From positions 1 through 50,505 of IMG/VR virus record IMGVR_UViG_3300044640_000715: a DNA stretch of 50,505 bases; one strand, 5' to 3'. The position numbers and the translations under genes are program-made. Positions 3,181 through 26,000 of the stretch are shown here, one piece after another. Each line of letters begins with the position of its first letter. Position 1 is the stretch's first letter. The notes below the pieces were generated by a model. The model saw only the letters and a program-made list of their open reading frames with translations, was not told the DNA's origin and did no database searches. The stretch comes from a virus.

Positions 3181-3208
3181 AGTTCCACCTTTAATAAGTT
3201 AAAGAAAG

Positions 3209-6200: not shown

Positions 6201-7567
6201 TTGCTTTTGGTACAGCTATGGAAGGTATTCAAGATAATCCTATAGGAGACTCTATGAGATATGGTTATGGCACAGGTGCAAGAGGAATGAAGAAATATGC
6301 TGGAGGAACTCCTCCTGCAGGAATTGTATATGGTAAAGGATATGATGCATCTATGTTTAAAGATTTCTTTGATAAATACAATGAGTTAAATCCTGGAGGT
6401 GTAATGGATATGAAATACATTCAAGGAGATTTAGGTATTGATAGTAAGACTCCAAAATTTGGAGAAATTTTTGGTCCTACTACTTATAAAGCTTCACAAG
6501 ATTGGTTAGCTAAAAATAAAAATAAAGCACCTGATGGGTATGGACCTCAAAAAAGTACTCCTGGACAAGTAGCAGGATATTTTAATCTTCCTACTGGTTT
6601 TGATCCTACTTATACTCCTAGTGCAAGAAAAAAAGGAATGTCTCTTTTTGATACTACAGATCCTTTTGCTTTAAAAGGTGCAGGAGATGCTTGGGCAAAA
6701 CAAAATCCTTTACCTGCAGGAGTAATAGATCCTTCTGTACCTGATAGTATAGATTATCAATCAGAAAATTTTCCTAATTTTAAAGGTGAAGCTACTGCAG
6801 AAAAAGAAAAAGGTTCTGGTAAACTCAGAACTATTCTTGAACAAATGGGAGGGAATGCTCCTAGTATAGGAGACCTTACTAAACTTGCAGGTAACTATAT
6901 GGGTATGACTGCAGGAATGAAAGGTGCTTATGATCAAAGAGCTTCTGATGTCACTCAGACAAATCCATTTGCTAAAGCAGGAGAAGATGCTTTAAAAGCT
7001 CTTGAAGGTATGCAAGCAAGTATTGAAGGACAAAAAGCTCAGGCTTTAGTTAATAATACTACTCAACAAAGAACTGCTACTAAGTCAGCAAATAATAGTA
7101 CTAGAAGTGTTAATACAAAAAGAGCCATGAATTGGTTATATGATACTGCAGCTACAAGTGCTGCTAATGAAATTGTAAAAAATACTCAAGCTCAGATTGC
7201 TCAATTAGGTCAAACTAAAACAGGTATTCTTATGAATAGAGACCAGATGAAAGGTCAAGGAGAGTACCAAACTAATATGGCTAACATGGCTAGCAAAGAT
7301 GCTTTTACTACTGCTTTAACTCAAGGTAGACAAGATTTTGCTAAAGGTTTACAACAAATGGGAGCAGACTTTAACTCTATGAAAGAGAACAAGATGATTG
7401 AAAATCTTATGCAAAACTATGGTACTTATGTCACTGTAGATAAATCAGGAAAATTAACTAATAAAAATGCAGTTTCTACCAAGAAAGAAGAACAAATATT
7501 TTTAGGTCCAGATGGTAAGACCAAGTTTAAATTAGGTAAAGACAATAAATTAATTCAAGTAACATAA
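3209..7567 (+). CDS. Large virion/cargo protein with beta-barrel-like repeat region
   Basis: This 1452-aa protein starts 29 bases after the tail-tip gene. The lysine-rich N-terminus begins MLQPNKKNKK. It is followed by a segment with FDPTGISSYDDVYRSY and a glycine-rich hydrophobic patch (about 60-75). Residues about 551-734 are glycine- and asparagine-rich with alternating polar and hydrophobic residues, ending in NAGVKYRF, which looks like strands of an outer-membrane beta barrel. Residues about 870-935 carry a module I recognise from Bacteroidetes phage structural proteins (VEVEDGER, GATHEENGIPL, GTQIFSDRLKVG). The C-terminal third is glutamine-rich and probably helical. It lies between the tail-tip gene and the RNA polymerase gene, where crAss-like phages encode proteins packaged in the head and ejected with DNA. 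It is probably a virion protein, but its exact role is unknown. Confidence 0.6.
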   Translation: MLQPNKKNKKASVNKKYSNAKKGDSLAEDVFEIFDPTGISSYDDVYRSYKKNGLLSWETGLEVLGALPIIGKAGKGIKIANTTSKYLKALSKVNKVTSKAEKVVPKILKYGKEVGKTIQQGSKAGKGNPVAVASMGIGMGAEAFQKATKVVEKVTKKGVKEIIKKAPANKRVINETVSTINTVNTLSDVAGAVNRKETPVESKKPKVVYYNTNPKNGKVEKPGEEEGVQYVPISNSVQLEKWKAQNNVPVTSDLKTKVARGVLGTVLPDQAAQFLSAIVTKDNKLGLEELTPEQQEALIKSVKNAQKRTGKDSGGTQYIDYSPEVEKAFQGMSAGKKQMISSDPDIQAATILGRVSYKKNALGETEIYDSYDFSKTDPEKADTFYKKVRAYAGTALPDDGKKPNLIGKIPGEEQELAYGTGKKGIGDPPLGLFKPSNIFQTDYKTNNLSTEDYNMKRALELGYMPDETGHWPSVDFETGEWLKSKKHPTRGMEIMAYTLNPELQKNLDLIENEQGNLQYVSKKYVLGTDAEGVDPNKRKLFDESSLTSNGLADVGFSTSSKNFGLNAGVGFNPEDLYGRVGGSFNKKGFNASGEFTQRPEGNYGLNANAGYGNKNINASLGYSKTNDNEFVTGNVSAGSDKLRLIMDYLKNAEGDSINTNLSFNNEIMGASGEPVGTLNSSIGAGVNPEDTFISGALDYSTKAFQQGKGFNYNAGVNYSDLSGPNINAGVKYRFANGTNQEGIMKSKMNPRKRYANGSNLGGIGASNYIETPAETMNDYDIMLAKASQESMSNPWLPVVSLVGGLAQQAVGSLAGKLGSKNIAGNTDAVTESKGASLIKKGINTGGDIDASLGVGVQAAMGMNNVQQDVEVEDGERYKTPAGQTGEFKGATHEENGIPLQVTQDPNANPKEGQAPEGTQIFSDRLKVGDKTIAEREATRERQTANLEKQASQPNIDQAVKNAIKRKMAAIQKEQQMDLAFQGQVNEMQQMADMAVQAFAFGTAMEGIQDNPIGDSMRYGYGTGARGMKKYAGGTPPAGIVYGKGYDASMFKDFFDKYNELNPGGVMDMKYIQGDLGIDSKTPKFGEIFGPTTYKASQDWLAKNKNKAPDGYGPQKSTPGQVAGYFNLPTGFDPTYTPSARKKGMSLFDTTDPFALKGAGDAWAKQNPLPAGVIDPSVPDSIDYQSENFPNFKGEATAEKEKGSGKLRTILEQMGGNAPSIGDLTKLAGNYMGMTAGMKGAYDQRASDVTQTNPFAKAGEDALKALEGMQASIEGQKAQALVNNTTQQRTATKSANNSTRSVNTKRAMNWLYDTAATSAANEIVKNTQAQIAQLGQTKTGILMNRDQMKGQGEYQTNMANMASKDAFTTALTQGRQDFAKGLQQMGADFNSMKENKMIENLMQNYGTYVTVDKSGKLTNKNAVSTKKEEQIFLGPDGKTKFKLGKDNKLIQVT

Positions 7568-7569
7568 TC

Positions 7570-9639
7570 ATGGGACAGTTTTATAAAGGAACAGAAGCTA
7601 CTTTCTTAGATGATGCAATGTTTAAATTGCCTTATGAATTAATGGGGACAGTTATAGACAAGAAAGATAAACAAGTAGAAACTGCTATAGAATCTAATGA
7701 TGCCTTAAATGGTATGATTGAAAAGATAGCTGCTTTACAAGGAGTAGATGAAGAAAAGGCTAAATTAATTAGACAAGGGTACTCTTCTCAAATTGAGGAT
7801 ATTACTAATTCTATTTATAATGATGCTATGAATGCATCTTCTTACATACCTAAAATAAACAACCTTAAAAAGAAAATAGGATTAGATTGGACTTCAGGAG
7901 AAGTTGCTAAGATCCAAGGTAACAAAGCTAGCTATGATGCTTGGGAAGAAGAATTGAAAGCTAAAGTTAAAGCTAAACCTGATGAGTATGATGCAGACAT
8001 GGTTAAAAGATTAACTGCTGCTAAATTGGCTGAATTTAATCAAGCAGGGGGAACTAGTTATGATCCAACAGGAGATTATAAATCTATTAGTACTGAAGAT
8101 GCTTTAGGGCTTAAAAACTCTGCAGAGATTTTAAAAGAATTAATGGAAGGTTCTATTAAAGGGTATAATAAAAGTACTAGTTGGAATCAAGATAAAGGAG
8201 GATGGACTGTTAAAAGTGATACTGCTGAAGAATTTTATACTCCTGAACAATTACAAAATATGTGGGTTAACCACCTTAGTACTAATCCTGGAATAATTTC
8301 TGCTGTAAAACAAAGAAAAGATTTAGGTTATGCTCCTTATCAAGGTAGTTTTAATGACCAAGGAGCAGTTTCTTTTGATGAAGGTAGTTGGTTTAAAACT
8401 TCTATGGATCAACTGCAAGAAAAATATGGAGGACATAAAACTACAACAGGAGGAGGTTCTACTATGAATACTCTTGGTTATGCTATTGCTAAAGATGAAC
8501 ATGATACAGTAAACTTAACTACTGAAGTAGGAGGGGCTCTTACTAGTATAGCAGGTAGAGATAATAACCAATTTTATAGTGCATATACCTCTACTAAAAA
8601 TAATGAGAATCAAGCACTTACTAAAGGTCTACAAGCTTATGCTGACTTACACTATAAGTCAGATAAGAAAGATCCTACTGAAGCTGCTAATGATAGACTA
8701 GAACAATTTAGAACTAGTCCTAAAAACTATAAGATATATGAGCAAATTAGAAAAGGAGACTTTAGTCCTATTGCTAATACTCCTGTAGGTAGAGCTGCAC
8801 AAACTCAATATAAAAGAGCACAAGTAGATAGAGCTGCATTAAATTCTCAAATTGCTCAGTTTAGTAAAGACACAGGTTTAAGTTATTATAATATTACTAA
8901 TAGTCCTGAGACATTAAAAAAATGGAATGAGTTTTTAAGTAAGAATGCTAGTAAACCTGTAAACAGACAAATGACTTGGGAAGGTACTGGTATGACTGAT
9001 ATTCAGAAAAAAGCAGCAGCTAAAGAATTTTTCCAAGGAGGAAAACACATGGATGTACCTATTTACTTTGAACCTGGAACTAAAATTGGAGGTGTAAATG
9101 TAGGAGGTACTAATGGAGCTAAATTCAGTATTAATGACTTAATAAATAATGGTGTTATTAAAATGGTTAAGGTAGATACTCCTACAGGATATGCTGGAAA
9201 TACAGGAATTGCTACACAGTTTCAAGCTGTAAATGGAAATGAATATATTAACTTAGATACTTCTGAAAGAAACTTTACACCAATTTGGGGATACAATGAT
9301 AGTGATGACATTGAATTTGGTTTTGGAGTTACTATAGGTGGTAAAACTCACTTTGGAAGAGTAGAAGGAGTTAGTACAGAAATGACTAGAAAACTTAATT
9401 CTGGAGATAATGCTTTAAGATTTAAGACAACTGCTTACTTAGATAAGAATGCACGTAATGTAGAAAACTTTCCTATTCCTAATAGTAATTATGTATACCA
9501 CGGAAGAGCTGTTAAAAATAATGGTAAAATAATTTATCCTGCTGGAAGTGTAACAAGGACAGTTAATGGAAAAGCTAAAACAGTTTCTCTTAATGATCCT
9601 GGTCTACAAATTGAAGTAGGACACTTATTATTTGATTAA
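7570..9639 (+). CDS. Virion-associated protein of the crAss cargo region
   Basis: This 689-aa protein starts two bases after the preceding stop, so the two genes are surely co-transcribed. I recognise no enzymatic motif. The first 200 residues are predicted helical and charged, with coiled-coil character (for example TAIESNDALNGMIEKIAAL). The second half contains glycine/threonine-rich beta-type segments (GGVNVGGTNGAKFSINDL and similar). There is no signal peptide or membrane segment. Its position among the giant late genes points to a structural or ejected internal protein. The alternative, a chaperone for the neighbouring cargo proteins, cannot be excluded. The start at 7570 is supported by the tight spacing; the stop is TAA. 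Confidence 0.5.
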   Translation: MGQFYKGTEATFLDDAMFKLPYELMGTVIDKKDKQVETAIESNDALNGMIEKIAALQGVDEEKAKLIRQGYSSQIEDITNSIYNDAMNASSYIPKINNLKKKIGLDWTSGEVAKIQGNKASYDAWEEELKAKVKAKPDEYDADMVKRLTAAKLAEFNQAGGTSYDPTGDYKSISTEDALGLKNSAEILKELMEGSIKGYNKSTSWNQDKGGWTVKSDTAEEFYTPEQLQNMWVNHLSTNPGIISAVKQRKDLGYAPYQGSFNDQGAVSFDEGSWFKTSMDQLQEKYGGHKTTTGGGSTMNTLGYAIAKDEHDTVNLTTEVGGALTSIAGRDNNQFYSAYTSTKNNENQALTKGLQAYADLHYKSDKKDPTEAANDRLEQFRTSPKNYKIYEQIRKGDFSPIANTPVGRAAQTQYKRAQVDRAALNSQIAQFSKDTGLSYYNITNSPETLKKWNEFLSKNASKPVNRQMTWEGTGMTDIQKKAAAKEFFQGGKHMDVPIYFEPGTKIGGVNVGGTNGAKFSINDLINNGVIKMVKVDTPTGYAGNTGIATQFQAVNGNEYINLDTSERNFTPIWGYNDSDDIEFGFGVTIGGKTHFGRVEGVSTEMTRKLNSGDNALRFKTTAYLDKNARNVENFPIPNSNYVYHGRAVKNNGKIIYPAGSVTRTVNGKAKTVSLNDPGLQIEVGHLLFD

Positions 9640-9674: not shown

Positions 9675-12600
9675 ATGCTTCAACCTAAGAAAAAAACTAG
9701 CAATGCTTTTGATAAAGCCTTTACCCAAGAAGCTTCAGGACAAGGGGCTCCTCAAGATTTTATTACACAAACTGCAGGTGGAAATTATAGTGTATCAGCA
9801 GAACAGTTAGAAGCTTCTAATCAAGGTTTTGCAGGAGACAGAGCTAGTAAACTTGCTTCTTTTTCTAGACAAAATGTTTTAGATAATGAAAAGTTTAAAC
9901 AGATTAAAAAAGAAAGAGAGGCTTACTTAGCTAAACCTCAAAATGATCTTGAAGAGTTACACAAACAAGTATTAAAGGATGATAAAAAGTTTGTAGACTT
10001 TAAAACAAAACTTAGAAACCTTGATAAACAAAAAGAAAGAAAGACTCAGATAGAAAATAAGTCAACAGATTTATGGGATGAGAATGGTCTTAATATTTTT
10101 GCACCTATCTGGAAATTAAGAGATGTTTTTGCAAGTGAGGAAAATAAATGGGGAAGATCAGATACAGAAGAAAAAGAACTAGCTGCTCTTAAACCTGCTA
10201 TTACAAAAACTCAGACTGAAATTAATAAAGAGATTACTCCTACTATTAAACTTCTTAATCAAAAACTTTGGGCAGAACAAACCCAAGATAAAATACAAAG
10301 AGATAAATTAGCAGGTACAATTTATAAAGACAGAAAAGCAGATGAAAAAAGAATGCAAAGCATGTCTTTTAAAGATTTGATGTCTAAAATATATCTTCCA
10401 GGTTCAGATACAAAACAAGACTCAGGTGAATTAGATGAGTTAGCTATTCTTAACTCAGCAATGAGAAAAAGACAAGAGACTATTAAATACACTGATGATT
10501 TCTTAAAAGGAAAAAACAATGTATGGGATGGTCTTAAAAACAAAGGATCAGACTTAATGACTTTAGGTTTGTATTCTTTTACAGAAGAGCTTGCTTACAA
10601 AACTCCTGTTATAAATAAGTTTAATAGACTTATTAATGAATTAGGAAATGAGAAAGCAGCTTTTGATTCTTTAACTTATGCTGAACAACAATTAATAAAA
10701 ACTAATGCAGTACATGATGACCTTAGACAAAATAAGGCTACTGCAGGTATGTTTGAAAAAGATGGAGTAGATTGGTATAGACATGCTGATGGTACTGCAG
10801 ACTCTCTTGTATTTATGGAACAAATGTTCTTTACTGGAGGTCCTACTGCACTTATTGAAAAAGGATTAATAGAGTCTACTTTAGGTAAGACTCTAACAAA
10901 AAGTGTATTAAAAAACACTGTTAGAAAATCTTTACAAAGAAAGATAGGTTTGTATGGTTTACAAAAAACAGCTCAACTTACAGGTGCAGTTCTTAGTTCT
11001 CCTTTATCTCCTGGTTCTGGAACAAATACTTTACAAGAACATAATGGAGGCATAGAAATAATAAAAGACAATGATGGAGAAAATAGATATCTTGTAAGAG
11101 ATGGTATTTTTAAAGCATATCAAAGAGACTATAACTATAAAAATTCTTTACTTGAAAAAGAGAAAGCAAAATTACAAGCTAAAGAAAATTTATCAGAAGA
11201 AGAAAAAGAAAGATTAGATCAAATAGAAAGTGACCAAGATCAACTAAATCAAGAGTTTAATACTTTAAGACCTAAGTCTTGGTTTGAAAGTGCTGCTTAT
11301 GGAACTTGGGAAACTGCTAAAGAAAACTTTATTGAATTAGCAGGAGGAGAAATAGCAGGAAAAGCATTAGGTAAAGTAGCAGGTTGGGCTGCAAAAACTG
11401 AAATAGGTAAGTTTGCTTTAAAGCCTACTCACCTTACTACAAAAGCTTACAAAGGAGTTTCAAACCTATACAAAGAAGGAGCAGAGAGATATACAAATTC
11501 TGTTGTAGGTAAGATTACTGGTAAAGCAGCTTACAGAACAGGTTCAAATAGAATTATACAAGGATTACCTGAAGAGATGTTTGAAGAAGTATTGTCTCAG
11601 TTAACTCCTTCAATTAATAGAGATTACTCTGAGCAATTAAAACAATTAAAAGATCCTTCTTTCTATGTAGATGTACTTGCTCAGACTGCAATGATGGGAG
11701 GAATGTTTACTACTGTAGGAGGAGTTTCTTCTGCAATTAACTGGAGACAAAATGGAAAAATGTATGATGCAAAAAGAAACATCATTAAAAAATATAAAGC
11801 CATTGACAAAGCAGTTACAGATGAAGATTTAGCAAACACTATTGTAATGAGTACTGCAGGTACCAATTACAGTATTGCTGACTATGATGCTAAGATAGAA
11901 GAACTAAGAGATAAAAAACAATTCAAAGCTGCAGATGAACTAGAACAAAAGAAATTTGTTAATATGGCAACTATTGCTATGCAAACAAATACTCTAGATC
12001 AATTTGAGATGACTTTAGATAACCTATTAAAAAGATCTCAGAGTTCTTTAGGGGAAGGTGGTATGTCTCCTGAAACTCTTCAAAACATTCAGTTAGCTAA
12101 AGAAAAGATTGAAAAGATAAAAAGTACTCATGAACAATATAAAGGTAGAACTAATGTAAATACTATAGTAGACCTAGCAAATAAAAAATTAGCTATAAAA
12201 CAAGGTCTTCAAAATATTTCTTCAGAGATAAGTACTCAAAGAGCTCTGGCTAATGAAGAACTAGAAACCTTAAGAAGCAATGCTCCTGATCATTTAAAAG
12301 ATGCTGACATTGATACTATCTTAAATGACAATCCTTTTACTCAAGAGGAGATGGAAGATGGTACTTTTGCTTTTGTAAAAAGTATTGATGAAGCTAATAG
12401 TCCTGCTATTCAAGCTTATATTAGATTGTTAGAGACTCAAGAAGAAATGAGATACTCTCACAGAGAAACTATGAAATTGTTTAATGAAGAGACAAGTTCT
12501 ACAAGAGAAGCAGAGTTACTTAAAAACCAAGAAGTTAAAAGAGCTATCAATAAACAAATTAGAGATAGTATTGAATTTGCAGAAGCTAATAATCTTTCTT

Positions 12601-15600
12601 CTCTTGGATTAGAAATAGATTCTAATGGTAAAGCTAGAATAGGAAAAGATTTTATTGAGCACACTTTTAATCGTGTTATTTCTACTCAAGGAGTAAAAGA
12701 AAAAGACTTTGAAGCTATCAAGCAAGACTACTTGAACATGGTTGAGATTCAAGAAGCTCAAAGAGCAATGCAAGCTAATAATCGTATTAACTCTTTATAT
12801 GATCAAGCTCAGATAGTAATTCAAGAGCAAAAACAAAAAAAGGCAGATAAAAAGAAAGCAGAAGAAGATGCTAAGTTAAATCCTATAGAAGGCACTCAAC
12901 TAAGATTGTTTGAAGAAGATAATGTAGAGATGGCTTCTCAGGAAGAGATTGAAGCTTATGAAGAAAATGTAGATACTGCTAGAGAAATTCTTTTAAGTCA
13001 TCCTGTCATTTTAGAAAATGATAAATACGATAATGACTATATTGAAAAAGTAGAAAGTAGTTTACCATTAATAGTAGATTTAGCTACCCAAGGTATGGGT
13101 ATGACTAGAGGACAGTTAAGAGAACAGTTTCCTCATTTATCTGATCCAGAAGCAGAGGCATTAGCTTTTGCTTTAAATCATAATATGACTCTTCCTGGTA
13201 AAAAAGAAACAGAAGAAGACAAACCTATTAACTCTTTAGAGACAGTAGCAGAAGGAATTCAAAATGCTCAATCTGATATTGAAAACATTATTAGTCCTGA
13301 AGGAGATTTTGATCCTGATGAAATAGTTATTGATGAAGAAGATACTTTATCTACTTTCCAATTAAACCCTGCTACAAATCTTACAGAAGATGCTCTTAAA
13401 GGTCTTAAGCAAGTTATTGGTAAAGTACATGAAGACCTTAAAAAACAATTTGGTAGAGAACCTTCTTTTAAAGAAATGGTATACCACTTTATTAAGTTTA
13501 CCAATAAAGTAAAAGCAGAGACTTTCTTTGATATGTATAGAGCTGGTTGGGAAGCAAATGGTTTTGCAGCTACTAACTATGATGATGTTTACAATGAAAT
13601 ATTTGAGCCTTCTAGAGATAGCATATTAGCTGCAGATTCTTTTATTGAAAGTATTTATGGTTCTCAAAACTCTTTTACAGAAACAGAAGATTCTTTAAGA
13701 GAAAACTCTCCTGTAGAATTAAGACAAGTAGAATCTAATCAAACTTCTATTAATAATTTTACTGAGAATAATGTTCCTATTAGAACTGAGAATGAAAATA
13801 GAATAACTAGTCCTGCTTTAAGATTAGGTTTTAATGCTATTAGATACGAAGAAGTAGAGATATTAGATGCTCAAGGTATTGGTACAGGTACATTTATTAG
13901 ACAAACAGTTATCACTGATAGTCTTAATGATGAGAACACTCAGATTGACTATAAGGATTTACTTAATCCTGACATGTATAATCCTGGAGACTCTGTCAAT
14001 GTAGGAGTAGCTCCTGAAGATTCTTGGTCTACTATTATGATTAATGTAGGAAGAGACCAACAGAATAAACCTATTCTAAAATCTTATGCAGATATCTTAA
14101 AAGAAAAAGAAGAAAAAGACCCTAACTACAGAAATACTGTTGAGTTTGTTGAGTCAGTGCCTATGTTTGCTTATGATAACAAAGGTACTCCTTTAGCTTA
14201 TATCCATGATTCTTCTTGGTATAATGAATGGAATGTAGCTGACCCTGCTAATGCAACAGGAGTTATAAATCCTAGAGGTATTACTTTAGCTCATAAACAA
14301 GCTATTGATGATGCTAGAGTAGCTGCAAGTAAGTTTAGACAATCAGTTTTTTCTAAACAGGTTTCTAAAATTAAAATAAAAGAAAAAACAGAAGGACCTT
14401 ATTATTCTATTGCTAATAAAGTTGACCCTAACACTGGAAAATTACTTCCACTATACACTATAGAAGAAGCTAATCCTGATTCTCATATTGTTACTCAAGG
14501 TAAACAAAATGTTTTAGAAAAAGGAAACAACATGGCTTTTGAAAATGAAAAAAGAGTCATAGTAAATAAAAATGAAATTGCTCAAAAGAAACAAGGAACT
14601 ACTTGGCACTTAAGAAGAATAGGTGTAGATGAACAAGGAAGAGAAACTTGGAGAGCTTTTAATGTTGTAAGATATCCTAAAGAAGAAGAACTAGAAACAA
14701 TTAAGTGGGCTTGGTCTGCATATTCTTTCTTTGACCATAAAGAAACTTTACAAGGTTCTAAGAAGTCAAAAATTATTCAAGAAGTAAGAAATGATTTTTT
14801 ACCTCCTGAATACCAATTAACTCCTGAACAAGCTAAAGAAATTATTAAAGACATTAAAGCTTTGACAGGGTATAATTTAATGAACTTTGAAGAAGCTTCT
14901 AGTTTCTTTAAATTGTTTATGCAACCTAGATCAGGAGATTCTAATGCTCAATTTGGTAGAACTTTATATACAGGTAACTTAAATACTTTTGCTCAACATA
15001 CTTCAAGAGATGGTTTACAGAAGAACTGTACTGTACCTATGATTGTAAATGGTAAAGTTGTTTCTACTAATAAAACTTATTCAGACTATTTAAAAACTAC
15101 ACTTAAGACAGATGTAAAATCTTTTAATGTGGGTACTGCAGATAAACCTGTATATGCTACTTCAATACAACCTAAGATTGTATTTGAATATGAAACAGGA
15201 ATGCCTGAACAAAATGCTGTAACTCAGACACAACAAAATAAAATAGAGGCAGAACAAATAAAAGAAGAAATTGCTAAAGTAGAATCTCCAGATGAGGTAA
15301 TACAAAAAGCTAATGACTTATTGTCTAAGTTAGGTTTTAGTACTCAGCAAATACAAGCAATGCCTGTAACAATGAATGGTGTAGAGCACTTAAGAAATAT
15401 CTTAAATACTACTCCAGGACTTTCTATAGCTCAAGAATCTCAACTATTAAACTTTACTGTTCAATACATTAATGCTCTTATTGATAGTGAATTTAAAGGT
15501 AAAGTTAATAAAGCATTGTTAATGAAGAAGTTACAAAATTCTTTTAAAGATATTGTAAGTCCTTCAATAGAAAACATAAATACAGTTTTAGAAAAAGTGG

Positions 15601-18600
15601 AAGCTTTACAAGCTGCTACTCCTAGCCCACAATTAGCAAACACTATAAATTCTTTAAAAGCAGCTTTACAAGCTTTAGAGAATTTAGAGAAAAACTGGAA
15701 TGTTGACAACATTAAAAAAGTATTAACTGTATCAGGATTACCTTATACAGGTCAAGTAGGTATCTTAGAGAAAGCTATTCAAGAAGTTTCTGAAACCTCT
15801 GACATATCTGAGAACAAAGAAGCAGTTGAAGAGCAAGAAGAGGAAGAAGAAGATTTATCATTAAGAGAAAAAACTTTTGATGATGCTGCTGCTTTGACTG
15901 AAAACTTTAAGACTAAGACTAGTTTCCGACAAAAAAGATTTATGTCTGGTATTACTAAAGTAGATAACCAAGGACAACCTGTTAAAGGATTCTTAGATCT
16001 TCCTCAGTACATGTCTTTCAATGAAATCTATGACTCTATTTATAGTTTATTAGGTTCAGGTGTTTACATTGAATCAGACTATAATACTATGAAAGCTAAA
16101 CTTCTTCAGATGTCTAATACACATCCTTGGATAAAAGAATTAATAGAGAAGTATGATAATGCAGATGAACAATTAAGAAAAGGTCTTGTATTAAACTATA
16201 GAAAACATGCTATCAACATGAAGTTCATGATGTATGATAACAGATCTAAAGACCCTAAACTTCAAGTTTATGATACTAATGCTAATGAAATCACTAGAGT
16301 TATTACCAATACTTGGGCTAATAATTTTACTACTTCACCTTTAGTTGTTTTAGACAAAGGACAGTATTCTATAAACAGGGATACTGCAATAAAATTATAT
16401 GATCAATACAAGTCTTGGGGTACAGAAGGGCACTTACAAGATGATCAAGTTATAAGAAATTGGTTATCTAATTTTGGTATAGATTTCTCAGATGAGTACT
16501 GGAGAGAATTAAAAGAAGTAGGGATGATGGATAAAGGAAAATACATTCCTTATAATTTATTGTTTTCTAGTCCTAATACTCCTATGGGATACTTAGGTAT
16601 TTACTTAGATAGAATAACTAATCCTCAAAATGTAAACTATATTCAAAACTTAAAATTTGAAGAGAATCCTAAAGCACATCCTTTTAAAGATATGTCTGGA
16701 GTTCTTAAAAACATTTCTAAAGGAGAAAGTAGATTTACTAATAGAACAACTAGTACTTCTTTTAGAGATGGACAAAAAAGTATTACAGGTATAACTAATC
16801 CTACCTATGTTACAAATAGAGTAGATGATTTGATTAGAAGTGCTATGTCTGAAGATAAGAAAATGATTTCTGATTTAAGAAATACTTCTATAGGTTCAGG
16901 TTCTACTATGTTAAAATTACTAATGGAATATCCTGATTTTGCAAAAAAATTAGAATTAAACCATTTAGGTATTACAGCCTTGAAACAGTATGGAAAGAAA
17001 GCAAATTCTTTTTCTTCTATCACTGACTTAAATATTGTAGACCATGAACTTACTAAACTAGGCTTCTTCCAAGACCAACAACAAGGAGAAGTTCCTGCTA
17101 CTTTTAAAGAAGGAGGATTTAGAATGAGAATGGCTAGAATGTTCTTGCCTACTATGTCAGATAAATCTCAAATGCTTGTTTTAAATACTGCAGTAATAGA
17201 CTTTATGAAAGAATCTAACTCTGCTTTTGAAACAGATAATGAAGGAGAACTTATCTTTACTGAAGACTTAAGAGAATTGTTGTACCAAAAATTGGTATTA
17301 CCTGAATTAAAAAGAATTTCTAACTTTCATAGAAGTGTAAAAGAAACTTCTGTAAAAGACTATGACAAAGCAGCACAAATCTTTAATATGATTCCTGCTT
17401 TAAATAATGTAAAAGACAAAGATGGGTATAGAATTATCCAACACTTAACTCAAAAATCTGTAGAAGATGTAGAGGCATTATTTAAAGAAGACCTTATCAA
17501 TGTTGTAGAAGATGTAATGCACAGTTTAGCTCAACAGAAAGTAGAAGCTTTTGATTCTTTTGTAGAAAAAGATGCAGCAGGCAATATTACAAAAGTTAAT
17601 TTCTTAGACAGTGCTTACTTAGCTTCTAATCCTGCTAATGTAACTATAGAAGAAAGATTAAAACACGCAGCTTATGACTTTGTTTTAAACTCTGTATTAA
17701 CTAATGCAGACACTTTCTCAACTATAGCAGGAGACCCAGCTTTCTTTTCACAAGACAAAAACTTTGAAAAAGATACTCCTCCTTATGCTATGAGTAGTGA
17801 TGCTGCTTATATGAAACTTGCTAAGAAACAAGGAGTAAATATTGGTAAAAGGTTAGCTTATCTTTCTGCTCCTGGAACTACTTTAGCTGATTCTAAAGAT
17901 GCTAAATACAAACAAGTATTCTTAAAAGATGACAAAGGTATTTCTCAAAATAGCAAGTACCTTATTTCTTTATATGAAGGTAAAGAAAGATTGAAAGAAT
18001 CTTTTATGGGAAGTACTGTATCAGATATGATTGACAAGTATCCTACTTTAACTCCTGCTAGTCAAGCTGTAGTAAGAAAAGGACTACAAGATTTATTTCC
18101 TTCTATTGGAGATTACTTTGATATTGATACTACTGATGCTCAAGAGTATACTACAGTAAAAGAACATATTGGAATCCTTTACAATCAAGAAAGACTTTCT
18201 GAAGATGATTACAAAAGAATCTTAGACAAAGTAGAAAGAGGAGATACTCTAGCTTATGAAGATATAAAATTAGTTATGCAGCCTATTAAACCTGTATATA
18301 CTGGTCAAACTTTAGATTCTGAAAAAGATATGTCAAGACCTATTTATATTAAGTCTTCTTCTTTTCCTTTAATCAAAGAACTTACTGCAGGTTTGCAAAT
18401 TGACAACTTGAGAGTTGCTTTAGAAAACTTAGAAAAACCTGCAGACCAAGGAGGGTATGGAATGCCTGTAAGAGCTTCTTATCAGTCTGCTAATAAGGTA
18501 GGTGCTGTAATAGATGCTAATACTGTAGACCCTTTAAATCCACAAAGTCTTCAGAACATTGAAGCAGCCATGGTTGAACTAGATAGAAATAATTTTAGAA

Positions 18601-21600
18601 TTCAACAGGATGTACCTTTTAAATCTGACAAGAAGAAAGAGGATAAGATATCTATGGGAACTCAAATCTTTAAATTATTATTTGGAGATGGGATTTTAGA
18701 CATAGAAGGTTTTGAATATAAAGGTAAAACTTACAAAGGGGAAAAATTATATGATGAATATAATGCTACTTTCCAGGCTCTTGTAGAAAGTAAAAAACAA
18801 CAGTTGTATACTGAACTTGGATTAGATTCTACAGGTACTCCTATTAATGAAACTGAAACAATTTTAAAAGTTCAGAATTTATTACAGAAAGAAGCTCTTG
18901 AAAGAAACTACCCTTTAAAAGATATTAAAGGACTTGAATTAAAAACTCTTTATGATACCCAAGGTAATCCATATTATGAGTTTAATATTCCATTGTGGTT
19001 ATCTACAAACAGTAATAGATACGAATCTTTATTGAATGCTATTGTTAGTAATAGATTAGTTAAACACAAGATTCCTGGAAACTCATTTGTAGCTGCTTCT
19101 GAAAATGGATTTGGATTTAAAGAAAACCTTGAAGGTATAGACCAATCCAGAATTATCTTTATGGATGATTATGATGGAAAAGAACTTAAAGGAGTACTTC
19201 ATGCAGAGGCTGATGAAAATGGTGTAAGACAATTTAAAAAAGCTCAAGTATTTGTACCTTCTAAATTCAAAGATAGTCAAGGTAAGTTAGTAGACTTGTT
19301 TGCTAAAAATGAAAAAGGAGAGAACATTTATATTGAGAAAAGAGAGAATGGTACTTGGAGATTAAAAGATGGAGTAATAGATCCTGAGTTATTAGCTCAG
19401 TTTAGTTTTAGAACTCCTACCTCTTCACATGTATCTGCATCTACTATTGAGATAGCTGGTATCCTTCCTCCTGAAAGTGGAGACTTAATGATTGTACCTA
19501 AAAACTTTACTAAACAAAAAGGTCTTGACTTTGATGTTGATAAAGAAAATGTATATCAATTACACCATATTACTGATTATAAAACAGGTAAAGTTGAAGT
19601 TTTTTCTGAAAAACATAAAGAAAAGACTTTAAAGGAAATACAAAAAGTTTTAGACAAACTAGAATTACAAAGAATAAAACTTCAAAGAAATCTTTTACCT
19701 GAAGAAGCTGCAGAGTTACTAGGTCAGTATGGAGCTTTAGAAGGAGAAGGTAGAATTGATTTAGCTAAATTCTTTGGAGAAGATTTATTACAAGAGGTTT
19801 TAAATGATGAGGCATCTCAGAAAGAAAAATATGCTAACATAGAAGCTAAGTTAACTCAAAAACTTCTTGAGAATGACTTTATTAGAATACACTCTGCTGT
19901 ATTTAATAATCCTAATCCTGAAGTACAAAAGAAAATCAACAAGGTTCTTTCTATGGATTTTGCTAGAGAACAGGCTGACTTGATTGAAGAGTTAACAGAA
20001 GAAAGCAAAGTACGTCAATTAGAATTAGAACTGACTGAAGAAGGAGTTTCTGCTCCAGAGGCTAAAGGACTTGCACCTAGAGCAAATAATAACTTCACTA
20101 TTCTTTCTGATGACTATCAGAAAAATAAAATGGGATTAGGAGCTGCAGGTAAAATGGCTATTGGAATCTATTCTAACTATGTTACTCTACACTCTTTGAT
20201 TCAGCAGACTAGAAGACCTATTAGAATGGTAGGGGAATATGATCCTGTTTCAAAAAAATATGAACCTAAAGAAATAAATATTGGAGGTCAGGTTTCTAAA
20301 GGTGTATTAGGTTTAGTAAATACTTTAGATGGTTCTAGAAGTATTGCAGAAGCTTTTGCTGAAAGACAGAATACAGCTACAGATAATGAGAAAGAACAAA
20401 TCTTAGGTAGAGTAAATATTAGTTCTCATACTATTGGTGTAGACTCTTTATTGACTTTATTAGGGTATGATAAAACTTCTTATATTGATGACCAAAATAA
20501 TAGAAAAGACTTGTCTTTATCTTATGCTATTCTTTCACAACCTATTATAAAAGAGTATGTAGAAGAATTACAAAAATCAAGAGGAGTAACCGCTGAGTAT
20601 AATCCTAATGCAGAGCAAGAGATTATAGAAAAACTATTTGCTAAGTATCAGACTGGAACAAAATTTGAAGATATTTCAAGTGATATTCTTACAGGAAACA
20701 ACTTAATAGATGGAATAAGAAAAAGTGGTTTAAATGGAGATGTACAAGTTGCAGCTTTAAAATTATTTACAGAATTAAATGACTATGCTAAAAACATGGC
20801 TAAAGTTCAAAGTGTAGTAGGTCTAAGACAATTAGATAAATCTATTTTTGAAACTCATTTAAGATACGAAGATTTAGAAAACTTAGGTAAGAACAAATCT
20901 TTTGAAAACATCTCTTCCTTAATTGGAGATTTTATTCCTGTTGAAGAAAATCTTATTAAACCTGAAGGATACCAAGTAATAGGCAGTTTCTTTGTAAAAC
21001 CTACAACTCCTCAAGGTAGTATTGTAGTTAATAGTTTAAAAGCAGCTAAAACATTGTGGGCAGATTTCTTCCCTTATGATGATCCTTACTTGAAAAAAGT
21101 AATGGAGTCTGTGTTTATTTCTTCAGGTGTACCTACAGATAGTAAATTTAAACAAGTAGAGGCTTTCCAGGATGTATTTGATGAAGTTAAAAAATACCTT
21201 AACTCTTGGAATAAGTTTGGAATCTTTGAAGGTACAGCTACTTCTGAAAGACAAAGACTATTTATAGACACTAATACAAATATGTCTTTAGCTAATTACT
21301 TAAATAGTAATTCTAGAGAGGCTCTTATTGCAGCTAATAAATTATTAAACAGGTTTACTTATGAAGTTCAAACTGATGGAAGACCTTCTTTAATTAAGTT
21401 TAACAATACAATTAGTGATGACTTGAATGAGAAATACCTTTATAACACATTTGCAGAAATGATTATAAATGATTCTCCTTTGCCTGATTTTAATGGTCAA
21501 CCTTTTTCTACTAGATTATTGGCTCAAGAGTTGATTACCTATTCTTTTATAGAAGGAGGAGTTCAAGAAGCTACTCAATTTATTAAGTATGTACCTTTAG

Positions 21601-23063
21601 AGTATTTGGAAGAAGTTGGAATAAAAGAAGAAGGTAAGTTTGTTTCTACTGCTTCTTTGTTACAAAGATTAAATACTAAGAGAAACCCTGAATTATTTAA
21701 ACATCTTTTAGGAGATATAAATACTATACAAGGTAAGTCTTTATTTATAAAACAATACTTTCAACACAATCCTGAAAAGACTACTGTAATGACTCCTACT
21801 AAGTTAGGATTAACAGATGAAGAAATAAGAGAAGCAGATACAATTGCTCTAGTAGGTAAAGATTTTTATCCTGATTTCTTTCATGTAAAAATCAAAACCT
21901 ATTCTAAATTAAAACAGCATAAGTATGACTTATTCCAACATTTGGGATCAGGTCAGTATGTAAAAGTACCTGTTTTAGGAACTACAGGTATGAATGAATA
22001 CCAAGCAGGATATAATAAAGTTAACTCAGTGTTTACTAAACAAAAAGAAGCTCCTAAATCAGAAGTAAGAACTGAGAAAAGTGGTCAACCTACTTTATCA
22101 GGAACTACAGGAACTCTTATTTCAAATAATGTTACTGCTGCTAGTGTAATAGAAAGTATTGCCAATTCTACTAATAAGAATATGGAACGATACAAGTTTT
22201 TAGCTAAAGCATTACTGCCTTTTGTATCTCCTAGTTTAAAAATTACAACTGGAAATAGTGTTGAAGTGTATGGTGCACCTGTTGCAGGATTCTATGATGA
22301 GCAAAAAGATTACATTTTTATGGACCTTGCTTATGCTTCAGGTAAAAAAGGTAAAGAAATAGGACTTTTCATGCATGAATTAGTACATGCCTTGTCTGTT
22401 AGAGAGTTGAAAAAATACTATACTGCTGATGAAAATGGTTTCTTCACTGTATTAGATCCTTCAGCTCCTCCTCATGTAGTTGCTTTAGATGATATCTGGA
22501 AACAAGCTATAGCTTCTTTGGACCCTAAAGAGGTTAGTTCAATGAAAGATAAGATAACTCTTCTTAGACAAAAGAAACAAGTTAACTTTACTAACAGAGA
22601 TACAGAATTAAACTATGCAGGTATAGATATTTTTGAGTTCTTGTCTTTAGCTATGGAATCAGAGGTTTTCCAAAAACACCTTTCTGAAATACCTTACAAT
22701 AATGGACCATTGACTTTACTACAAAAATTTGCAGAAATTTTAAAAGACCTTATTAGAACTATCAGCCCAGACATTAAAGAAGACTCTTTAGCTGAAGCTA
22801 CTCTAAATACAGTTTTAGATTTCTTAGAAACAGAAAGAGCTATTTCAGAAGAAATGCCTAACTTTGAGGACTTTGATTCAGAAATCTCTGAAGAAGAAAG
22901 AAACTTACTAGAACAATTTGAACTAGATAGGGAAGAAATGGAAAGTCAAGGTTTCTCTGAAGATATAGATTTATCTCAAGATTCTTCAGAAGAAGCAGAA
23001 GAAAATTTATTACCTGTTGCAGAAGAAGAAGAATTACCTTGTAATGGAGGTTTAGCAATATAA
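9675..23063 (+). CDS. Giant virion RNA polymerase (DFDVD active site) with C-terminal zincin metalloprotease motif
   Basis: This 4462-aa protein contains G-L-D-F-D-V-D-K at residues 3283-3290, so the metal-binding aspartates are D3285, D3287 and D3289. This is the DxDxD signature of crAss-like virion RNA polymerases, the DFDID enzyme of phage phi14:2 that is ejected to transcribe early genes. About 39 residues upstream is R-T-P-T-S-S-H (3246-3252), resembling the conserved R-x-P-x-L-H that precedes the catalytic loop in bacterial beta prime. Near the C-terminus MHELVHALS gives a gluzincin-type HExxH (H4234, E4235, H4238), suggesting a metalloprotease domain that might process virion proteins. 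The N-terminal 1800 residues are mostly charged and helical, and the tail is acidic. At about twice the length of phi14:2 gp66 it looks like a fusion of polymerase with ejected-protein and protease parts. The basic N-terminus MLQPKKK resembles that of the 1452-aa protein. The polymerase call is firm; domain borders are not. Confidence 0.88.
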   Translation: MLQPKKKTSNAFDKAFTQEASGQGAPQDFITQTAGGNYSVSAEQLEASNQGFAGDRASKLASFSRQNVLDNEKFKQIKKEREAYLAKPQNDLEELHKQVLKDDKKFVDFKTKLRNLDKQKERKTQIENKSTDLWDENGLNIFAPIWKLRDVFASEENKWGRSDTEEKELAALKPAITKTQTEINKEITPTIKLLNQKLWAEQTQDKIQRDKLAGTIYKDRKADEKRMQSMSFKDLMSKIYLPGSDTKQDSGELDELAILNSAMRKRQETIKYTDDFLKGKNNVWDGLKNKGSDLMTLGLYSFTEELAYKTPVINKFNRLINELGNEKAAFDSLTYAEQQLIKTNAVHDDLRQNKATAGMFEKDGVDWYRHADGTADSLVFMEQMFFTGGPTALIEKGLIESTLGKTLTKSVLKNTVRKSLQRKIGLYGLQKTAQLTGAVLSSPLSPGSGTNTLQEHNGGIEIIKDNDGENRYLVRDGIFKAYQRDYNYKNSLLEKEKAKLQAKENLSEEEKERLDQIESDQDQLNQEFNTLRPKSWFESAAYGTWETAKENFIELAGGEIAGKALGKVAGWAAKTEIGKFALKPTHLTTKAYKGVSNLYKEGAERYTNSVVGKITGKAAYRTGSNRIIQGLPEEMFEEVLSQLTPSINRDYSEQLKQLKDPSFYVDVLAQTAMMGGMFTTVGGVSSAINWRQNGKMYDAKRNIIKKYKAIDKAVTDEDLANTIVMSTAGTNYSIADYDAKIEELRDKKQFKAADELEQKKFVNMATIAMQTNTLDQFEMTLDNLLKRSQSSLGEGGMSPETLQNIQLAKEKIEKIKSTHEQYKGRTNVNTIVDLANKKLAIKQGLQNISSEISTQRALANEELETLRSNAPDHLKDADIDTILNDNPFTQEEMEDGTFAFVKSIDEANSPAIQAYIRLLETQEEMRYSHRETMKLFNEETSSTREAELLKNQEVKRAINKQIRDSIEFAEANNLSSLGLEIDSNGKARIGKDFIEHTFNRVISTQGVKEKDFEAIKQDYLNMVEIQEAQRAMQANNRINSLYDQAQIVIQEQKQKKADKKKAEEDAKLNPIEGTQLRLFEEDNVEMASQEEIEAYEENVDTAREILLSHPVILENDKYDNDYIEKVESSLPLIVDLATQGMGMTRGQLREQFPHLSDPEAEALAFALNHNMTLPGKKETEEDKPINSLETVAEGIQNAQSDIENIISPEGDFDPDEIVIDEEDTLSTFQLNPATNLTEDALKGLKQVIGKVHEDLKKQFGREPSFKEMVYHFIKFTNKVKAETFFDMYRAGWEANGFAATNYDDVYNEIFEPSRDSILAADSFIESIYGSQNSFTETEDSLRENSPVELRQVESNQTSINNFTENNVPIRTENENRITSPALRLGFNAIRYEEVEILDAQGIGTGTFIRQTVITDSLNDENTQIDYKDLLNPDMYNPGDSVNVGVAPEDSWSTIMINVGRDQQNKPILKSYADILKEKEEKDPNYRNTVEFVESVPMFAYDNKGTPLAYIHDSSWYNEWNVADPANATGVINPRGITLAHKQAIDDARVAASKFRQSVFSKQVSKIKIKEKTEGPYYSIANKVDPNTGKLLPLYTIEEANPDSHIVTQGKQNVLEKGNNMAFENEKRVIVNKNEIAQKKQGTTWHLRRIGVDEQGRETWRAFNVVRYPKEEELETIKWAWSAYSFFDHKETLQGSKKSKIIQEVRNDFLPPEYQLTPEQAKEIIKDIKALTGYNLMNFEEASSFFKLFMQPRSGDSNAQFGRTLYTGNLNTFAQHTSRDGLQKNCTVPMIVNGKVVSTNKTYSDYLKTTLKTDVKSFNVGTADKPVYATSIQPKIVFEYETGMPEQNAVTQTQQNKIEAEQIKEEIAKVESPDEVIQKANDLLSKLGFSTQQIQAMPVTMNGVEHLRNILNTTPGLSIAQESQLLNFTVQYINALIDSEFKGKVNKALLMKKLQNSFKDIVSPSIENINTVLEKVEALQAATPSPQLANTINSLKAALQALENLEKNWNVDNIKKVLTVSGLPYTGQVGILEKAIQEVSETSDISENKEAVEEQEEEEEDLSLREKTFDDAAALTENFKTKTSFRQKRFMSGITKVDNQGQPVKGFLDLPQYMSFNEIYDSIYSLLGSGVYIESDYNTMKAKLLQMSNTHPWIKELIEKYDNADEQLRKGLVLNYRKHAINMKFMMYDNRSKDPKLQVYDTNANEITRVITNTWANNFTTSPLVVLDKGQYSINRDTAIKLYDQYKSWGTEGHLQDDQVIRNWLSNFGIDFSDEYWRELKEVGMMDKGKYIPYNLLFSSPNTPMGYLGIYLDRITNPQNVNYIQNLKFEENPKAHPFKDMSGVLKNISKGESRFTNRTTSTSFRDGQKSITGITNPTYVTNRVDDLIRSAMSEDKKMISDLRNTSIGSGSTMLKLLMEYPDFAKKLELNHLGITALKQYGKKANSFSSITDLNIVDHELTKLGFFQDQQQGEVPATFKEGGFRMRMARMFLPTMSDKSQMLVLNTAVIDFMKESNSAFETDNEGELIFTEDLRELLYQKLVLPELKRISNFHRSVKETSVKDYDKAAQIFNMIPALNNVKDKDGYRIIQHLTQKSVEDVEALFKEDLINVVEDVMHSLAQQKVEAFDSFVEKDAAGNITKVNFLDSAYLASNPANVTIEERLKHAAYDFVLNSVLTNADTFSTIAGDPAFFSQDKNFEKDTPPYAMSSDAAYMKLAKKQGVNIGKRLAYLSAPGTTLADSKDAKYKQVFLKDDKGISQNSKYLISLYEGKERLKESFMGSTVSDMIDKYPTLTPASQAVVRKGLQDLFPSIGDYFDIDTTDAQEYTTVKEHIGILYNQERLSEDDYKRILDKVERGDTLAYEDIKLVMQPIKPVYTGQTLDSEKDMSRPIYIKSSSFPLIKELTAGLQIDNLRVALENLEKPADQGGYGMPVRASYQSANKVGAVIDANTVDPLNPQSLQNIEAAMVELDRNNFRIQQDVPFKSDKKKEDKISMGTQIFKLLFGDGILDIEGFEYKGKTYKGEKLYDEYNATFQALVESKKQQLYTELGLDSTGTPINETETILKVQNLLQKEALERNYPLKDIKGLELKTLYDTQGNPYYEFNIPLWLSTNSNRYESLLNAIVSNRLVKHKIPGNSFVAASENGFGFKENLEGIDQSRIIFMDDYDGKELKGVLHAEADENGVRQFKKAQVFVPSKFKDSQGKLVDLFAKNEKGENIYIEKRENGTWRLKDGVIDPELLAQFSFRTPTSSHVSASTIEIAGILPPESGDLMIVPKNFTKQKGLDFDVDKENVYQLHHITDYKTGKVEVFSEKHKEKTLKEIQKVLDKLELQRIKLQRNLLPEEAAELLGQYGALEGEGRIDLAKFFGEDLLQEVLNDEASQKEKYANIEAKLTQKLLENDFIRIHSAVFNNPNPEVQKKINKVLSMDFAREQADLIEELTEESKVRQLELELTEEGVSAPEAKGLAPRANNNFTILSDDYQKNKMGLGAAGKMAIGIYSNYVTLHSLIQQTRRPIRMVGEYDPVSKKYEPKEINIGGQVSKGVLGLVNTLDGSRSIAEAFAERQNTATDNEKEQILGRVNISSHTIGVDSLLTLLGYDKTSYIDDQNNRKDLSLSYAILSQPIIKEYVEELQKSRGVTAEYNPNAEQEIIEKLFAKYQTGTKFEDISSDILTGNNLIDGIRKSGLNGDVQVAALKLFTELNDYAKNMAKVQSVVGLRQLDKSIFETHLRYEDLENLGKNKSFENISSLIGDFIPVEENLIKPEGYQVIGSFFVKPTTPQGSIVVNSLKAAKTLWADFFPYDDPYLKKVMESVFISSGVPTDSKFKQVEAFQDVFDEVKKYLNSWNKFGIFEGTATSERQRLFIDTNTNMSLANYLNSNSREALIAANKLLNRFTYEVQTDGRPSLIKFNNTISDDLNEKYLYNTFAEMIINDSPLPDFNGQPFSTRLLAQELITYSFIEGGVQEATQFIKYVPLEYLEEVGIKEEGKFVSTASLLQRLNTKRNPELFKHLLGDINTIQGKSLFIKQYFQHNPEKTTVMTPTKLGLTDEEIREADTIALVGKDFYPDFFHVKIKTYSKLKQHKYDLFQHLGSGQYVKVPVLGTTGMNEYQAGYNKVNSVFTKQKEAPKSEVRTEKSGQPTLSGTTGTLISNNVTAASVIESIANSTNKNMERYKFLAKALLPFVSPSLKITTGNSVEVYGAPVAGFYDEQKDYIFMDLAYASGKKGKEIGLFMHELVHALSVRELKKYYTADENGFFTVLDPSAPPHVVALDDIWKQAIASLDPKEVSSMKDKITLLRQKKQVNFTNRDTELNYAGIDIFEFLSLAMESEVFQKHLSEIPYNNGPLTLLQKFAEILKDLIRTISPDIKEDSLAEATLNTVLDFLETERAISEEMPNFEDFDSEISEEERNLLEQFELDREEMESQGFSEDIDLSQDSSEEAEENLLPVAEEEELPCNGGLAI

Positions 23064-23066
23064 GAT

Positions 23067-26000
23067 ATGGACAACTGTAGATTACCTTATAAAGAGTCAA
23101 AATTAAATGCTCTTAATAAACTAGAAGAAAAAGGATTAATTGTAGGTACAAGAATTTTACCTCTTGATAAAAGAGATGAATTTCAAGCTTACCATGCTAA
23201 AGAATTAAGAATAGCTAACTCTGCTTATAATCTTTCTTTGACTTCTTTGTACACTATTGAGTCAAATACTGTAGGGGATGATTTTAAAGGTAGATACGAA
23301 AAGAAAATAACTGAAAGAGTTGAACCTATTGATGCAGCTTTTGCAGAAATAGATAAAAGAAGAAAACAGTTAGGGATTTATGAAGATCAAATTTCTTATG
23401 CAGAATACAAAAAGAAATTAAGAGAGCAAAATGAAAACCTAAAAGAAGAACAACTTTTAGCTGACACAGGTACTTATGAATATCAAGGAGAAGTATACGC
23501 ATCTCAAGAAGATGTAGATGCTGCTAGAAGACAGGATCAGAGTACTTTCTTTATGCCTACTACTAATTATAACCCTACTAATTATGGCAGTGTCATATCT
23601 TTTAAAAAGAATGTATTAAGCAAAATTGAAAAAAGACTTAATGACATTAACAGTTTAAGAAGAACTGTAAAAAACAGTGCTCTTAAAAAAGAAGCTCAAG
23701 AACTTCAAGATTTAAAAGATAGAGTAACAGAACAGATTAAAAACTTAGAAACTGATCCTGACATTTTTGACAGGACTATGCAAGTCTTTTATAAAGATTT
23801 AAGTTTTATTAAGAGTCTTGTTGCTAATCCTACTATGGAGAATTTGGATTTAGCTGAATATCATTTATCTTACTTTGAAACTATTACTGATTACAGTTCT
23901 CAAAATCCTGATAATACTTTAGTAGATACTTCTGATTACACTGCTATTGAACCTGAAGTAAAAGAGTTATTAGACAAAATGACAAGAACAGTCAAAGAGT
24001 TGAAAACAGATATTAATCAAGCTAAAAAAGAATATTTACTTGAAGTAATTGAACAGACTCCTGAACTTAAAAAGATGTTTAGTAATAACTCTACAGAAGA
24101 AATTAGAGATATTATTAATGCTTTTGAAGGAGACATAGATAAAGTAAGCATGATATTCTTAAGTGCAGACTTAAATTTTTCAGGACCTCAAGACATTCTT
24201 GGACAACTTATTGTAGACATCTTAAAAGAAGCTAAGTATAAAAATAAAGCTCAATCTAAAGACCATGCTCAAAAAATTAATGATACAGAAGCAGATGCTA
24301 GAAAAGCTTTACTTGGTTTAGGTAAAGGTATTACTTATTTTAGTAGAATCCCTTGGTTAGGAAAATTCTTCTCTGATGTAAGTTATGATATGTTCTATCA
24401 AAAAACTGCTAGGGGGTCTAAAACAGGTAGATTAATTGGTAAATACTCTCATTCTTGGTTTAAGACTTTAAATAGTTTCATTGGTTCTAACATGAAAGCT
24501 ATAGAGAAAGCTATCACTAATCAAAGTGAGTCAGAACTAAACAATGCTTTAGTAAATAAGTACAGTTGGTTAAATCAGAATACAGATTTTGTAGATTTAA
24601 CTAGACTTCCAGAGATAATTAGCAATCCAGCTTTTGCACAATACTCTAGTTATTTTAATCCTGCAGATGCAGATGCTTACAAACAAAAACTTATAGCTAC
24701 TATAGGTCAATATGAATACAACAGATTAGTAATTCAACAAACTCTTTTAATAGAGGATTTTAATCAAAAGATATCCAATGAGTTAGCAGCTATTATGAAT
24801 GCTAACAATGTTACTTCTCCTGCTAATTTACCCTTAAATATTATTGATCACTTTAACATCTTCACTAAAAGACACAGTCCTTTTGAGTTTATGCAATCTC
24901 ATAACACAGGACAAGAAGGTAGAGTGGATTATTTTGTAGGACAACAGGGAAATCAATATCAATCTTATCTTAATTACAACACTCATATTCCTAAAAAAGA
25001 AGTTGAAAAATATGACCCTGTGTCAGGAATTACTTTTACTGAAGACTCAGGTTTTTACGATAAAGACTTTTCTCAGATTGAATCTGATCCTGCACTTCTT
25101 AAATTTTGGGAAACTGTCAGTGATGCTGTAGAATGGATGAACTCTAAGTTAAGTGACTCTAATACTTCTTTAAGTCATAATTCCTTGTTAGCAATGGAGA
25201 AATCTCTTGTAGGAGATGTTCTTTTAAATAAAAATGTAGGGATACTTAAAAAGTTTATGCCTTTGTTAAGAGCAACTGCAGATACTTTTAAAGGTTTATT
25301 TTCTCAGAATGTAAGAAACACTAGTGTAGACCAATCAGATTACATTAGCAAAGGTATTATTAAGACTATTGAAGAGCCTGTAAATAAAAATATGAAGATA
25401 ATTGAAATGAAATTATCTACTATTTTAGGAGTTTCTGTTTCTCCTAAGACTGTAATAGATTTACAAACTGCTCCTAATTCGGTAATTGATATTTTTGAAA
25501 AAACTATAGGTAAAAATCGTTCTCAAATTATGCAAGAATATGGTACTTCTGTACCTGTATCTATACTTAGAGAGCATATTACTCATCAAGTTATCCAAGA
25601 ACAGACTTTTAATTTACCTGTAATGTTAAGAGCTTATCTTGATGCTACTTCTACCTATGCAGCACAAAAAGAAAGTTTACCTAAAATAAATATCTTAAAA
25701 GGTATTTATGAAGATAAGGTTAAACATCAACCTGCAGATCAAGAAAATAGTCAAGTAAACCAAGCTATCAGAAATAACAGAACTAAAAAAGGTATTGAAA
25801 ATAAAAGAGTCAATAGTCAGACAAGAATGAACTATTGGATAAACAAGTCTGTAAAAGGTTCTGAAGATAAAAAGTATTGGTTAAAACTAGGAAAAAACTA
25901 CACTAAAGGAGAAGCTGACTTTAAAAAAGAAGCTGAAATATACTTAGCAAGTTTAAATAATAGATTAAATAATACTACAGAACCAGGAGAAATAGAAGCT

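Follow-up and report, generated by a model that had tools for sequence, protein, structure and literature searches.

A predicted C-terminal zincin domain in a giant crAss-like RNA polymerase protein, homologous to the zincin of N4-type virion polymerases

A single phage protein of 4462 residues carries both the catalytic motif of an RNA polymerase and the HExxH motif of a metalloprotease. The ORF lies at 9675..23063 on the plus strand of the window, the whole stretch of DNA analysed, a virus record 50,505 bases long that is probably a genome fragment, since the window edge truncates the first ORF. The ORF begins with ATG, has no internal stops, and contains DFDVD (residues 3285-3289) and HELVH (residues 4234-4238) in one reading frame, exactly at the positions given in a sequence-only reading of the window. 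Judged by homologous sequences, neither motif is due to chance, because the colinear ORFs of FpV4 and FPSV-S29 (4287 and 4419 aa, respectively) align DYDID and HEVIH to DFDVD and HELVH, and because one PHROG family (16227, 'virion structural protein', length 4401) spans residues 71-4392 of the ORF (E=0).

The giant ORF and its neighbourhood

Upstream of the ORF, and also on the plus strand, are a muzzle (tail) protein ORF that is cut at the window edge (1..3180; PF25731, E 3e-13, and PF25729) and two cargo ORFs of 1452 aa (3209..7567; PHROG 15413) and 689 aa (7570..9639; PHROG 14670), which are read as occupying the crAss gp45 and gp46 positions from their location only. Downstream, beginning 3 bases past the polymerase ORF, a gp49-like cargo ORF of 1657 aa (23067..28040, plus strand) is matched by hhalign to crAss gp49 and to the Suoliviridae gp49-like proteins (82.5% and 73.8%, respectively). 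A DNA polymerase exonuclease-subunit-like gene (28217-29107; PHROG 403, E 2e-60) is the last long plus-strand gene before the strand switch.

The ORF product comprises an N-terminal module (residues 1-2080; 9675..15914), which ends near an acidic linker (residues 2031-2070), a virion RNA polymerase of the two-barrel type (residues ~2085-4023; 15927..21743), a zincin domain (residues ~4149-4393; 22119..22853) and an acidic, poorly conserved C-terminal tail (residues 4391-4462; 22845..23060), all encoded on the plus strand. A Pfam scan of the N-terminal module gave no match above the cut-off. Its identification as a fused gp47 was rejected for want of a secure profile match, the best (60% over 92 columns) being obtained with one set-up and not reproduced with other segments, and a second motif of the polymerase kind, DFDPD at residue 1211, falls where conservation is poor and is not the active site.

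Among cultured phages, the closest relatives are the Flavobacterium phages FpV4, Fpv3 and FPSV (Fipvunavirus), whose 'structural protein' of 4.3-4.4 kaa is colinear with the window protein over its full length, has the motifs at equal positions and stands among the same neighbours (a muzzle-position ORF, two cargo ORFs and a gp49-like ORF). The proteins nevertheless differ, with ~37-38% identity over the whole length, DYDID in place of DFDVD and HEVIH in place of HELVH. The NCBI taxonomy gives Fipvunavirus no Crassvirales label, and its phages belong to none of the five groups in Yutin et al. (2021; PMC7886860); that study noted one gut genome that clusters with Fpv3 and likewise falls in none of the five crAss-like families. 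The layout of the window is common to the Fpv-type phages and to most of the related environmental phages.

A crAss-like polymerase with a predicted C-terminal zincin

Profile matches and the predicted fold identify residues ~2085-4020 as a virion RNA polymerase of the crAss-like two-barrel type. They map onto the crAss001 gp50-type polymerases and the Suoliviridae giant polymerase (hhalign, up to 99.4%), and a 34-sequence profile of residues 2790-3900 finds the phi14:2 polymerase among the solved structures (PDB 6VR4, E 7.4e-81), all other solved structures scoring E 1 or worse. Structure prediction by segments, which had been proposed as a check, bears out the relationship to the phi14:2 polymerase. 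An AlphaFold2 model of 1111 residues (pLDDT 82.8, pTM 0.82) is matched by Foldseek to 6VR4 (E 8e-30, TM 0.61) and then, weakly, to cellular and poxviral multi-subunit polymerases, and it aligns along 6VR4, a comparison that took in the putative two double-psi barrels of the chain as a whole rather than barrel by barrel. The DFDVD sequence (19527..19541, plus strand) is the catalytic DxDxD motif of the beta'-like barrel, and D3285, D3287, D3289 and K3290 are invariant in a 9-row alignment.

The phi14:2 protein gp66 (PDB 6VR4; gp077 in KC821624) has the homologous polymerase core and the DxDxD motif and likewise adjoins a gp49-like cargo gene, but is a stand-alone protein of 2180 aa. The statement that the crAss polymerase studied so far is about half the size of the present ORF thus applies to this protein but needs qualifying in view of the Suoliviridae giants cr55_1, cr10_1 and cr4_1 (4551, 4460 and 4491 aa, respectively), in which the DxDxD of a homologous polymerase is found at about the same residue as in the window; crAss-like RNA polymerase genes encode up to ~6000 aa according to a review (PMC10136315). 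Neither the 4462-aa size nor the polymerase-zincin fusion is unusual or unique to the window's phage. As for the proposed joining of a virion RNA polymerase to a metalloprotease, there is good support for both polymerase and zincin, whereas packaging of the 4462-aa protein in the virion is what we infer from its homologues: the phi14:2 polymerase is a virion protein by mass spectrometry (record annotation), as are the crAss001 homologues (PMC10172136), and the Fpv homologue is annotated 'structural protein'.

Within the zincin domain, HELVH (22374..22388, plus strand) provides the predicted zinc ligands H4234 and H4238 and the predicted catalytic residue E4235 on one helix, and E4321 (22635..22637, plus strand) is the predicted third ligand, on a second helix. 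As modelled by AlphaFold2 (pLDDT 81, mostly >90 in the core), the domain contains three strands, the HELVH helix and a later conserved helix that bears E4321; alignment and model together give the arrangement typical of gluzincins, with HExxH in one helix and the downstream Glu ligand in another. When the zincin is compared alone the structural match is modest, yet dominated by zincins. In VIA-align the best score is for a protein of the lethal-factor type (Z 6.9), followed by Spartan (6.0), PPEP-2 (5.7) and the N4 vRNAP (4.9), and the rows at Z>=4 are mostly HExxH proteins, N4 vRNAP included; Foldseek returned nothing at E <= 0.001. On alignment and model, HELVH with E4321 is a predicted zincin site in the C-terminal domain.

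The conservation of this site was assessed in relatives collected by a viral-contig scan with an alignment of the polymerase core, and the resulting survey leans towards the window's kin because the best 80 of the 436 relatives found among the candidates were kept. Single-sequence scans of viral contigs gave no relatives, whereas alignment queries of viral contigs did find them; a scan of genome contigs found none. A homologous zincin domain is present in 70 of 81 polymerase ORFs (the best 80 of 436 loci plus the window), in most of them roughly 750-1100 residues past DxDxD and in a few farther. Since the loci were fetched by the polymerase motif, conservation of the zincin is not a selection effect. 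Among 64 non-redundant zincin domains the top conserved columns are H4238 and E4235 (both 100%), F4322 (98%), E4321 (94%), Y4314 and H4234 (both 89%). The position of E4321 is occupied by Glu in 66 of the 70 relatives and by Asp in the other 4; the full site reads HExxH with Glu in 60 and HExxH with Asp in 3, and carries Glu or Lys instead of the first His in 7. HExxH with Glu or Asp is therefore kept in 63 while the remaining domain drops to 12-30% identity, and the metal site is, on this sequence evidence, under strong selection. The seven EExxH or KExxH variants (L042, L055, L058, L059, L067, L068 and L081) fall at five places in the polymerase tree, beside intact relatives, when the tree is read by eye (the automated minimum, which ignores unlabelled rows, is 2). 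One phage carries the zincin twice, in neighbouring giant ORFs (L094 2-6517 and 6521-18193; E 2e-24 and 5e-47, respectively).

The HExxH motif is short and arises by chance in long proteins, and the window's domain hits no zincin family in plain scans against Pfam and NCBIfam; a chance origin of HELVH can nonetheless be practically dismissed, as it is refuted by the conservation of the zinc site and by homology to N4. The SprT-like family is weakly matched by 32 of 57 relatives (best E 6e-5). PHROG 2206, 'virion RNA polymerase', is matched by the C-terminal part of the window ORF alone (E 4e-8) and by 37 of the 57 relatives, and when the last 553 residues were searched by tblastn in 50,697 phage records, the hits beyond the FpV group were nearly all N4-type polymerases, albeit with insignificant E-values. 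In hhalign the window-type zincin matches that of N4 at 97.5% (E 5e-12, score 86, as against at most 16 for 30 column shuffles and 16 for the reversed profile); because these profiles had been trimmed around HExxH, the hhalign score may be inflated, whereas the PHROG and tblastn results come from sequence not so cut. Furthermore, a profile built from crAss-like loci only found 12 of 12 N4-type proteins (1e-7 to 1e-16) and 0 reversed sequences, and the zincin profile matched, among solved structures, 9SFN chain G (E 2e-14), PhiM1 gp48 (8VB2, E 8e-9) and the N4 vRNAP (11FW, E 5e-8). By these profile comparisons the window zincin is homologous to the zincin of N4-type virion RNA polymerases.

The N4-type vRNAP (Schitoviridae gp50) resembles the window protein in being a giant virion polymerase with the homologous zincin (MPTase) C-terminal to the polymerase (PMC5512222), but its polymerase is T7-like and single-subunit, and an additional domain, C2, of ~1100 residues is present towards its C-terminus (PMC12633501). 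The window polymerase, being of the two-barrel type, is not a member of the N4-type vRNAPs. In the profile search the zincin is also common to the tetrameric PhiM1 ejection protein gp48 (8VB2) and the 9SFN internal virion protein, which differ from the window protein in their size (1263-1337 residues) and in being annotated ejection or internal virion proteins, not RNA polymerases. Both 8VB2 and 9SFN chain G have HExxH and a downstream Glu at the zincin-profile match. PhiM1 gp48 belongs to a T7-like ejectosome (PMC11440229), and the main text of that paper does not contain the words protease or peptidase. The presence of zincins on ejected proteins was first noted for N4, in 2017.

A gene boundary that moves around the zincin

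In every layout the zincin lies at the polymerase/gp49 junction, and the gene boundary is found after it (the window and the FpV group), before it (phi14:2 and Suoliviridae) or not at all (15 loci). Polymerase, zincin and gp49-like module form one ORF in 15 of 69 loci, with the gp49-like module in another ORF in 53. In phi14:2 the zincin is found at residue 245 (HEIMH) of gp076 (L118/L119; KC821624 40997-45262; E 1e-20), the next gene past the polymerase; gp076 and the polymerase are both annotated as virion proteins confirmed by MS/MS, gp076 being listed only as 'structural protein'. The homologue of the window-type zincin in Suoliviridae cr55 and cr4 is, unlike that of the window, also in the next gene and not in the polymerase ORF.

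A second zincin class (HEAFH/HEAYH) is C-terminal in crAss001 gp47 (L013 19983-27008, residue 2157) and present in L016, L018 and L019. The Suoliviridae giants differ from the window in carrying this class (HEAFH) upstream of the polymerase, as do 8 surveyed loci, and no ORF with both classes was found among the surveyed loci. Homology between the window zincin and the HEAFH zincin of crAss001 gp47 was rejected (6.5% probability, the reversed control being equally high). A remote common origin of the two classes is possible, because the Suoliviridae gp49-side zincin matches both (94.8% to gp47 and 97.8% to N4). Since crAss001 gp49 contains no HExxH at all, the function of the zincin may in that phage be dispensable or taken over by the gp47 zincin. 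The giant cargo ORFs of cr4_1 (L019 14172-33060) have TAG in frame 38 and 18 times, with TAA and TGA absent, and the TAG codons are apparently read through as an amino acid.

Possible roles of the zincin

Self-processing has been proposed for N4-type proteins (Iyer et al., 2017), and the sequence-only reading similarly suggested that the protease could free the polymerase or neighbouring cargo: the zincin would cleave the chain that carries it, either inside the head or once ejected, and release the polymerase from the N-terminal module or from gp49-like cargo. Its constant place at the polymerase/gp49 junction is in keeping with this, as are the 15 loci in which it stands between the other modules of a single ORF and the cleavage before packaging of P1 DdrB, which has a related type of domain (PMC5512222). 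The zincin of phi14:2 and Suoliviridae, however, is not on the polymerase chain; the N4 vRNAP, which also has a homologous zincin, enters the particle uncut (PMC5512222), and no degradation was noted for the recombinant full-length N4 protein (PMC12633501). In addition, the first zinc His is lost in 7 of 70 relatives and is broken in 3 of the 15 fully fused loci (L055, L059 and L068), where release would be most needed. We therefore do not favour self-processing and regard it as rather unlikely. The notion that the protease is needed only with gp49 in the same ORF was likewise unsupported, broken sites being if anything more frequent in long-tailed ORFs (6 of 35, versus 1 of 34; Fisher p 0.11). 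It is also unlikely, in our estimation, that the zincin is a structural or regulatory fold, which would serve packaging or restrain the polymerase in the manner of the N4 C-terminal region, with proteolysis not its main role. The N4 C-terminal region does lower transcription in vitro (PMC12633501), the zincin-containing region of N4 is needed for encapsidation (PMC12633501; PMC5512222), and EExxH and KExxH variants occur at several places in the tree, but the retention of the complete site in 63 of 70 otherwise strongly diverged domains speaks against this role and for strong selection on the metal site.

On balance, we lean towards a delivered protease. The ORF product would be a giant ejected cargo protein made up of the N-terminal module, the crAss-type two-barrel polymerase, which would transcribe early genes after phage entry, and the C-terminal zincin. 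The latter would be a module tied to ejected proteins, not to polymerases as such, acting as a protease on a host or ejection-complex protein during or after ejection, and its presence on one chain with the polymerase would mainly secure its co-packaging and co-delivery. This explanation is favoured because the domain occurs with two unrelated polymerases, without any polymerase, and on predicted or known ejected proteins; a co-ejected protease active during or after entry fits better than the freeing of the polymerase. More tentatively, and with distinctly less confidence, podovirus ejection cargo may generally include one zincin family, which would have been fused on separate occasions with two unrelated polymerases and with ejection proteins that are not polymerases; among crAss-like phages it would mark a polyprotein-like junction with a moving gene boundary, and its constant ejection would be explained by a putative common target in the envelope or cytoplasm of the host.

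Both N4-type polymerase-zincin fusions and giant crAss-like polymerases are already known kinds of protein, and what appears to be new is the zincin at the polymerase/gp49 junction while the gene boundary shifts around it. No description of a zincin in crAss-like polymerase cargo was found in the freely accessible text of the literature searched. The finding implies that two different injected polymerases, the crAss-like two-barrel enzyme and the T7-type enzyme of N4, share the same extra domain. Its presence on a crAss-like polymerase, or on the neighbour of that polymerase in phi14:2, gives the search for the substrate another, unrelated system, and phi14:2 has both a polymerase crystal structure and a laboratory host. 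The natural variants, in which the zincin is split off, fused or deprived of its first zinc His, would separate self-cleavage from action on another protein.
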